From Clostridiales bacterium (GTDB lineage: Bacteria; Bacillota; Clostridia; Oscillospirales; Acutalibacteraceae), in assembly GCA_012839705.1 (NCBI GenBank), contig DUMT01000119.1:1-45081 (forward strand): a stretch of 45,081 nucleotides of DNA. The letters are read 5' to 3'. Positions 4,193 to 6,319 of this stretch are shown in pieces (position 1 is the stretch's first letter; each line of letters starts with the position of its first letter). A model generated the notes under the pieces. The model saw nothing but the letters and a program-made list of their open reading frames with translations. It was not told the DNA's origin and searched no databases. A program made the translations under genes and the position numbers.

Positions 4193-4873
4193 TTAATCCT
4201 TACCGTTGACAGGCACGATATCCTGGAAAACTGCCCGAAGGCTTTTGCTCAGCACCTTGTCGGTATGAAGGGAGCCAAAAAACCAGCATTCATATTCAAC
4301 TTCGCTTTCAATCAGCCCCAGATATGCATTCAGCCCGTTCTGGCGGCCCTTTTTATCAAAATAAATTCCGGTTTTGCCGGGGTATTCGTGGGTAAGGATG
4401 TAATCCACCTTGTTTCCGTTTTCTTTCAGCCGCTGGCGGCCGCTTAACATCTCCTCGGCGGAGGGCATTTCCTCCTCCCACCAGGTGTTTGTATCCTCGC
4501 GGATGTCGAAGTCGCGGCTTTCTCCCCCGCCGAATGCAAAATATTTCTTGGATTCAATGGTGTAAATCTCCCCCCGAAGCAGGTGGATTATATTATCGGC
4601 TATTTTCTGCACCCTGCCGCCATTCCATTCGGTAACAGGGTAATCCCTTAGCAGGTCATAGTTTTCGTGGGGGCCGTCCAGAAACAGCACCGTGTATTTC
4701 AGCCGCGACATTTTTTTCAGGACTTTTTTCTCTTTCTTGCTTCCATCCCACAAAAAACCGAAATCCCCAAGCACGATAAGGGTATCCCCGCGGCGAAGGC
4801 GGCGGGCAGCCGGGGATGTGAACCGTGAGAAATCCCCATGAGTGTCGCCGGTAATATAAACCATATAAACCAT
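4193..4873 (-). CDS. Metallophosphoesterase
   Basis: ITGDTHGDFSRF, VLGDFGFLWDG, FLDGPHENYDLL, LTHEYPG calcineurin-like motifs. Confidence 0.85.
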   Translation of the reverse strand: MVYMVYITGDTHGDFSRFTSPAARRLRRGDTLIVLGDFGFLWDGSKKEKKVLKKMSRLKYTVLFLDGPHENYDLLRDYPVTEWNGGRVQKIADNIIHLLRGEIYTIESKKYFAFGGGESRDFDIREDTNTWWEEEMPSAEEMLSGRQRLKENGNKVDYILTHEYPGKTGIYFDKKGRQNGLNAYLGLIESEVEYECWFFGSLHTDKVLSKSLRAVFQDIVPVNGKD

Positions 4874-4918: not shown

Positions 4919-6319
4919 ATGCAGAATCTGAAAAAGTTAAAATCTATTTTTACCACAGCGTTTTCACGCTCTGCAGCAATCATCTTGGCAGCATCCGTTT
5001 TGATAAATATCATCGCTATCCCTGCAAATGCCCAGTCCCTTTACGATCTGCCTGCGGGCACAAGCATCAGCGCCAAAGCTGCGATACTGGTTAGCCTGGG
5101 CGCAACAGAGAAGGAGGACCTTGCGCTTTTTGAGCTGAATGCCGACCAGAAACGCTCCCCCGCCGCTTTGGTCCGCCTGATGGTGGGAATCACCGCCATA
5201 GAAATCATCCGGGAAAAGGGCATCGATATTAAAAATACAACCGGAAAATACACCATGGATGCCTTTAATACGATAGCAGGGCAGAACCTTGCCACCGCAG
5301 GCATGACCATTGGCGAAGAATGGACTATAAAAGACCTTTTAAGCCTTTCCATGATCCAGACCGCCGCCGACGCCTGCGCCACCCTTGCCGTCACCCTGGG
5401 GGGCACCCACAGCGGGTTTGTGGCTAAGATGAACGAGATTGCCAGGAAAATCGGCTGTGAAAACACCTCGTTTACTAATGTTAGCGGCATTGACAATCCC
5501 AGTCAATACACTACCGCCAGGGATTTGTATAAAATTATCCGTTACGGGATGAATTATCCTGAATTCGAGCCCCTGTTCTCCCCCGCCCAATACACCGTAA
5601 AGCCGGTGAGCGGCGGAAAAGAGCGCACTTACCCTAACACAAACGACATGCTGAGGTCCACAACACCCTATTATTATTCCCCCATGGCCTTCGGCAAAAC
5701 GGGATTTACCGATTCGGCAGGGCGGTGCCTTGCCTCAGTTGCCCGGGACAGCGGTTATGAATACCTGTGCATCGTGATGGGTGTTCCAAACACAGACGAA
5801 AACGGCAATACCGGCGTGTATTTCAGGGATACCCGCACCCTGTTCAAGTGGGCTTTCAACAACTTCACCTACAAGGTGCTGCTGAACAAAAACCAGCCCA
5901 TCACCCAGCTACCCGTAAGGCTCGCCTGGAACAGGGACAGCGTCACCCTTATCCCGGAAAAAAGCTTCGCGGCGATTGTTATCAACGACCTCCAGCCCGA
6001 AACCGTAACAAAAAAAATAATAAGGCTGAAGGAAACCGCCGACGCCCCCATTGAAAAAGGGCAGGTTCTGGGCAAGGTGGAGCTTTATATCCAGACCGAC
6101 CGAAAAATCGGCGAAGTCAACCTGGTGGCCGCCGAGTCAATCGAGCGCAGCCAGCTCCTTGCCGTTTGGGCGCAAATCCAAAGCTTTCTGTCCTCACCAT
6201 GGTTTTATGCGGGGCTTGGGCTCCTTGCCCTGATGTTTATTGGGTATATAATCCTTAATTTCATACACAACCGGAAACTCCGCCGCAAGCGGATGAAAAA
6301 GCTGACCCGGTTCCGCTAA
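4919..6319 (+). CDS. D-alanyl-D-alanine carboxypeptidase (peptidase S11) homologue with degenerate active site; C-terminal membrane anchor
   Basis: DacF-like fold: N-terminal signal peptide, MIQTAADACATLA, GKTGFTDSAGRCLAS, PBP5_C-like region APIEKGQVLGKVELY, C-terminal TM plus basic tail. Confidence 0.9.
   Translation: MQNLKKLKSIFTTAFSRSAAIILAASVLINIIAIPANAQSLYDLPAGTSISAKAAILVSLGATEKEDLALFELNADQKRSPAALVRLMVGITAIEIIREKGIDIKNTTGKYTMDAFNTIAGQNLATAGMTIGEEWTIKDLLSLSMIQTAADACATLAVTLGGTHSGFVAKMNEIARKIGCENTSFTNVSGIDNPSQYTTARDLYKIIRYGMNYPEFEPLFSPAQYTVKPVSGGKERTYPNTNDMLRSTTPYYYSPMAFGKTGFTDSAGRCLASVARDSGYEYLCIVMGVPNTDENGNTGVYFRDTRTLFKWAFNNFTYKVLLNKNQPITQLPVRLAWNRDSVTLIPEKSFAAIVINDLQPETVTKKIIRLKETADAPIEKGQVLGKVELYIQTDRKIGEVNLVAAESIERSQLLAVWAQIQSFLSSPWFYAGLGLLALMFIGYIILNFIHNRKLRRKRMKKLTRFR

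Follow-up and report, generated by a model that had tools for sequence, protein, structure and literature searches.

A gene in the stretch of Clostridiales DNA analysed here (contig DUMT01000119.1, 45,081 nucleotides; hereafter the window) encodes a member of peptidase family S11 in which the acylating residues have been replaced, while the protein is kept under purifying selection. It is best explained as a bitopic S11 pseudoenzyme, which is likely to have a non-catalytic role at the wall or membrane as a scaffold or regulator, and this role is probably older than the loss of catalysis. The first-pass annotation had read the open reading frame (ORF) as an extracytoplasmic pseudoenzyme, a reading supported by the motif losses and the purifying selection described below, with catalytic death predicted from the residues. 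Beyond this single protein, a pseudoenzyme clade spanning seven genera and repeated losses of the SxxK motif elsewhere among the orthologs were identified.

The ORF (4919..6319, + strand, as are all features of the protein given here) starts with ATG and comprises 466 codons with no internal stops. A putative N-terminal hydrophobic signal or anchor segment (residues ~1-38; 4919..5032), evident in the sequence and modelled as a helix at residues 2-31, precedes a Peptidase_S11 domain (residues 49-290; 5063..5788; Pfam, with a PF00768 match at the same coordinates; Bitscore: 117.7; cut-off: 27.6). A PBP5_C domain (residues 316-410; 5864..6148; Pfam; Bitscore: 43.2; cut-off: 21.2) is located downstream, as in PBP5-type (DacA/DacF) proteins. 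A transmembrane-like segment recognized by hydropathy (residues ~428-449; 6200..6265; helix 427-465 in the model) is followed by the basic C-terminal tail HNRKLRRKRMKKLTRFR (6266..6316), which from its charge is probably cytoplasmic under the positive-inside rule. The PBP5_C-like region noted as kept in the first-pass annotation is borne out, and the C-terminal anchor noted there corresponds to the hydrophobic segment with its basic tail. By profile and fold, the window protein belongs to family S11.

Motif positions were assigned by phmmer alignment to the solved D,D-carboxypeptidases PBP5 of Pseudomonas aeruginosa (4k91), PBP6 of Escherichia coli (3it9) and PBP5 of Haemophilus influenzae (3a3j). 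At residue level, the serine and lysine of the SxxK motif align with A83 and R86 (A83-L-V-R86; 5165..5176; codons 5165-5167 and 5174-5176, respectively), the serine and asparagine of SxN with T148 and A150 (T148-A-A150; 5360..5368), and KTG with K260-T261-G262 (5696..5704). The SxxK of an active S11 enzyme is therefore replaced by AxxR and its SxN by TxA, with KTG being retained, exactly as had been read from the letters and at the same coordinates. Acylation by S11 enzymes uses the nucleophilic serine, the general-base lysine and the SxN residues. As these are lost, acylation, D,D-carboxypeptidase activity and covalent penicillin or other β-lactam binding are predicted to be very unlikely in the window protein.

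An AlphaFold model was built from a five-sequence alignment (mean pLDDT: 72.7; pTM: 0.60) and compared with the PDB using Foldseek. The model matches PBP5, PBP6 and DacB of Bacillus subtilis (E ~1e-20 to 1e-25, with E ~1e-25 for PBP5/6), indicating that, as modelled, the D,D-carboxypeptidase fold is retained overall. The comparison with PBP5-type folds thus stands at the level of the fold, while residues 237-266 near KTG have a pLDDT below 50 and the pocket cannot be read from the model.

Orthologs are present in 12/12 genomes of the genus, the other eleven sharing 62-82% identity with the window protein. All twelve combine AxxR, TxA and KTG in open frames, and no genus ortholog has an intact SxxK. 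Pairwise dN/dS values (NG86; 15 pairs with dS<2) range from 0.066 to 0.238 with a median of 0.157, and the gene is under purifying selection within the genus, in agreement with the earlier view that it is not a decayed pseudogene. Fixation in all twelve genomes and in seven genera excludes a one-strain lesion or sequencing error. The genome of origin (1.9 Mb assembly, 160 contigs) also encodes three S11 paralogues in which all motifs are intact (SVTK/SAN/KTG, STTK/SGN/KTG and SLTK/SGN/KTG). Among the S11 paralogues of the other genus genomes, a pattern search recovered SxxK, SxN and KTG at 24/26 loci, paralogue L063 being without the SxN pattern and L048 being missed by the search. The data speak against a redundant duplicate freed from selection, as most genomes hold a single match at E<=1e-40 and the dead protein has no second close ortholog beside it; three other S11 enzymes nonetheless coexist with it in its own genome.

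Across the bacterial family (coded f1), orthologs matching query P0001 at E<=1e-40 were found in 286/298 genomes and 109/111 genera, mostly in exactly one copy per genome, while twelve of the 298 genomes are without a match at this threshold. The sporulation marker SpoIVA (PF09547) was detected in 271/298 genomes. The S11 ortholog is present in 19 of the 20 SpoIVA-less genomes listed, and SpoIVA is present in eleven of the twelve genomes without an S11 match, including four of genus g55. Presence of the S11 gene does not follow that of SpoIVA, suggesting that the gene is not tied to sporulation, and a sporulation-specific role, which had been offered as one option in the first-pass annotation, is weakened. 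The g55 genomes (G065, G168, G239 and G292) are reduced (0.9-1.0 Mb) and retain SpoIVA without an S11 match at E<=1e-40, and represent natural absences of use for comparison. A search of viral contigs for relatives gave three weak matches, which were not used.

A divergent ORF on the opposite strand (4193..4873, - strand; 226 amino acids) encodes a metallophosphatase-like protein with a GDTHGD motif. This gene is the only conserved neighbour of the S11 gene, being located upstream in 57 of the 78 f1 loci that include 280 nt or more on that side and beside the S11 gene in most genera, and it accompanies intact and degenerate S11 loci alike. It serves here as a conserved synteny marker. Its product reads G[PTAR]HE and GSLHxD where GNHE and GHxH are expected, and has no family match in Pfam, NCBIfam or the PDB. 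The shared synteny supports the orthology of the f1 S11 loci; among the loci read, those of g2, g24 and g123 and some of g50 lack this neighbour next to the gene. Genes for UDG, KsgA and a deaminase flank the S11 locus in the genus and part of the clade described below. Alignment of the regions upstream of the S11 gene showed no clear conserved regulatory motif.

The motifs were surveyed in 116 ortholog rows, comprising 31 clade rows (g59 included), 62 rows with all motifs intact and 23 others; outside the clade, mostly one genome per genus was picked by score, and the proportions are as such not frequencies. In a maximum-likelihood tree built without the motif columns (418 columns; 116 rows, three of which are outgroup paralogues), genera g1, g74, g50, g123, g79, g100 and g24 form a single clade with an SH-aLRT of 100. 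An apparent eighth clade genus, g59 (L110, GxxR/TxS), was omitted from the tree. Every clade member covering the sites has R86 in place of lysine and alanine or serine in place of Asn150, the SxN position reading TxA or NxS/SxS/AxS/TxS across the clade. KTG is intact in g1, g74 and g79 and drifts to RTG, RCG or KNG in sister genera, while the old nucleophile position is occupied by alanine, serine, glycine or proline. Catalytic residues are hence lost across a whole lineage under purifying selection, as expected of a pseudoenzyme. Some clade members, namely g50 and a single species of g24, retain the serine (SxxR), and residual or altered chemistry may persist in these.

The invariance of R86 in the clade, matching that of K86 in the intact orthologs, indicates a position that is selected rather than drifting, and would be in keeping with a new chemistry on the same fold, such as that of another hydrolase or an esterase, in which R86 is catalytic or binds an anion. 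Such a neo-enzyme is nevertheless very improbable, as the sites fixed solely in the dead clade include no invariant serine or threonine, the one fixed cysteine (C180) is mostly conserved in intact orthologs too, and the old nucleophile position varies among the four residues named above.

Beyond the clade, SxxK is retained in the majority of the genera sampled. It is broken in g2 (AxxK), in g9 (GxxG) together with g14 (AxxM), and in g4 (AxxK), g71 (AxxN), g63 (SxxT), g106 (SxxQ) and g130 (SxxV). The SxxK state requires a minimum of seven changes on the tree, and a topology constrained to unite all 38 SxxK-less rows fits significantly worse (lnL difference: 290; p-AU: 1.2e-7). A single origin of all degenerate orthologs can therefore be rejected, the motif columns having been left out, and SxxK has been lost at least seven times among the orthologs of one gene. 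KTG is also broken outside the main clade, in L144 (g4; KQT) and L149 (g47; NSG), and a further degenerate homologue, L037 of Ruminococcus, reads PxxN/SxI.

On several branches of the tree, SxxK and KTG are intact and only the asparagine of SxN is replaced, giving SxC in L018, L021, L033, L124 and L134, SxG in L020, L114, L118, L129 and L136, and SxA in L084 and L089. These orthologs possibly represent an early step of decay, or alternatively a tolerated variant of altered activity. The occurrence of such SxN-only losses, together with the placement of g106 and g130 among the SxG rows, suggests that the asparagine may have been lost before SxxK, an order hinted at around g70, g82, g89, g106 and g130.

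Hydropathy identified the C-terminal hydrophobic segment, followed by a basic tail, in 30/31 rows of the dead clade, 61/62 of the intact set and 23/23 of the remainder, and the tail has a median net charge of +9 in dead and intact orthologs alike. This suggests that the bitopic design is ancestral rather than a novelty of the dead clade. By hydropathy only, the strongly hydrophobic segment and basic tail of the window protein appear to differ from the amphipathic anchor of PBP5-type enzymes, and the paralogues in its own genome (L001-L003) have a lower C-terminal hydropathy.

Ten sites are conserved in both the dead and intact sets with differing residues, three of which are the motif positions 86, 148 and 150 (hypergeometric P: 3e-4). 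At matched depth (13 sequences per set; mean identity 0.445 for dead and 0.444 for intact), invariant sites number 47.6 in the dead clade versus 45.0 in the intact orthologs, while the 13 positions of the active-site region include 2.3 invariant ones in the dead clade versus 11.8 in the intact orthologs. The outcome of this comparison could partly reflect that seven dead genera are set against many intact ones. Twenty-three positions are fixed in all dead subsamples and seldom in intact ones, and these positions include Y42, A55, D67, Y111, W135, D139, R208, P229, F316, Y318 and W428. On these alignments, constraint appears to have moved from the active site to other positions and not to have been relaxed. 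That the gene is instead functionless and on its way to being lost, to which its several degenerate catalytic motifs and the twelve family genomes without a match might point, is scarcely credible given the open frames and the dN/dS of ~0.16 in the genus, its retention across seven genera and the sites newly fixed in the clade.

The retained ectodomain fold and PBP5_C domain, the conserved bitopic topology with its basic tail, and the intact KTG of g1, g74 and g79 would suit a pseudo-receptor, in which the dead pocket binds the D-Ala-D-Ala stem peptide non-covalently and senses or tethers peptidoglycan, with signalling through the transmembrane helix and basic tail. We consider this unlikely. 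The pocket is not conserved in the clade, with only about two of the 13 active-site positions invariant, and its drift in the sister genera, including that of KTG to RTG, RCG and KNG, disfavours a strict peptide-receptor role. Furthermore, the basic tail occurs equally in intact orthologs and hence gives no sign of gained signalling.

The strong purifying selection on the gene, the repeated losses of catalysis and the re-targeted constraint argue instead for a non-catalytic role, of which a membrane-wall scaffold or regulator is the most economical form. The window protein would be secreted and anchored in the membrane, retaining the fold, the PBP5_C stalk, the transmembrane-like helix and the basic tail, while the acylation machinery, namely the nucleophilic serine, the general-base lysine and both the serine and asparagine of SxN, is gone. 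Its selected function would be non-catalytic; most likely, the newly fixed positions would enable the protein to hold or regulate a partner where membrane and wall meet, with a wall enzyme or a component of the division or elongation machinery as candidate partner. This role probably preceded the loss of catalysis, since the gene is retained wherever catalysis has decayed, with other S11 enzymes covering the trimming.

In combining an S11 domain with a PBP5_C-like domain in a secreted, membrane-anchored protein, the window protein resembles PBP5 and PBP6 (DacA/DacC) of E. coli, DacB of B. subtilis and PBP5 of P. aeruginosa. Unlike in these enzymes, its SxxK and SxN motifs are destroyed and its anchor appears to be a hydrophobic, transmembrane-like segment with a basic tail. 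A precedent for the catalysis-independent retention of a wall-enzyme fold is found in SpoIIQ, the LytM domain of which is degenerate in Bacilli (dead in B. subtilis) and intact in several Clostridia (PMC4982068). As with the S11 gene, lineages differ in whether the ortholog is catalytically intact or dead, and SpoIIQ has a structural role (PMC4982068); however, it has an unrelated fold (M23/LytM) and is a sporulation channel protein, whereas the S11 gene is kept in SpoIVA-less genomes. A structural role independent of catalysis is likewise seen in PBP 2B of B. subtilis, the division role of which survives an engineered inactivating active-site mutation, with another PBP supplying the activity (PMC5656894), although this PBP acts in division and belongs to a different class, and the dead form was made in the laboratory and is no natural pseudoenzyme. 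Naturally inactive serine-protease homologues have been catalogued in prokaryotes across five families (trypsin, subtilisin, S12, Clp and others) and are believed to have gained new functions (PMC2605481). The window protein resembles these in being natural and in lacking catalytic residues, but the survey is without the ortholog-level history of loss available for the present S11 series. Inactive serine-protease homologues are as such already known as a kind, while a clade of S11 pseudoenzymes was not met in the literature searched; neither S11 nor PBP pseudoenzymes were matched there, its coverage being partial, so that descriptions may still exist.

The 'D-alanyl-D-alanine carboxypeptidase' assigned by automatic annotation would be wrong as to activity for the whole Clostridia clade. 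The loss of catalysis over at least seven Clostridia genera, in a protein nonetheless kept intact by selection, suggests that the useful job of the window pseudoenzyme is probably not cutting. A wider proposal, which we regard as possible but hold with rather more doubt than belief, is that the near-universal, single-copy, bitopic S11 protein of the family has an important function independent of D,D-carboxypeptidase activity, catalysis being a dispensable ancestral extra that was shed at least seven times, with the seven-genus clade rebuilt around an invariant arginine for the catalytic lysine and new fixed positions. If true, it would constitute a wall-anchored scaffold or regulator of a type undescribed for any S11 protein. 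D,D-carboxypeptidases are widely seen as tuners of cell shape and cross-linking, with puzzlingly mild phenotypes. The natural series of intact and independently dead orthologs, all of them retained, would allow the structural role of an S11 protein to be told apart from its catalysis in evolution, and may provide a direct route to testing that structural role.
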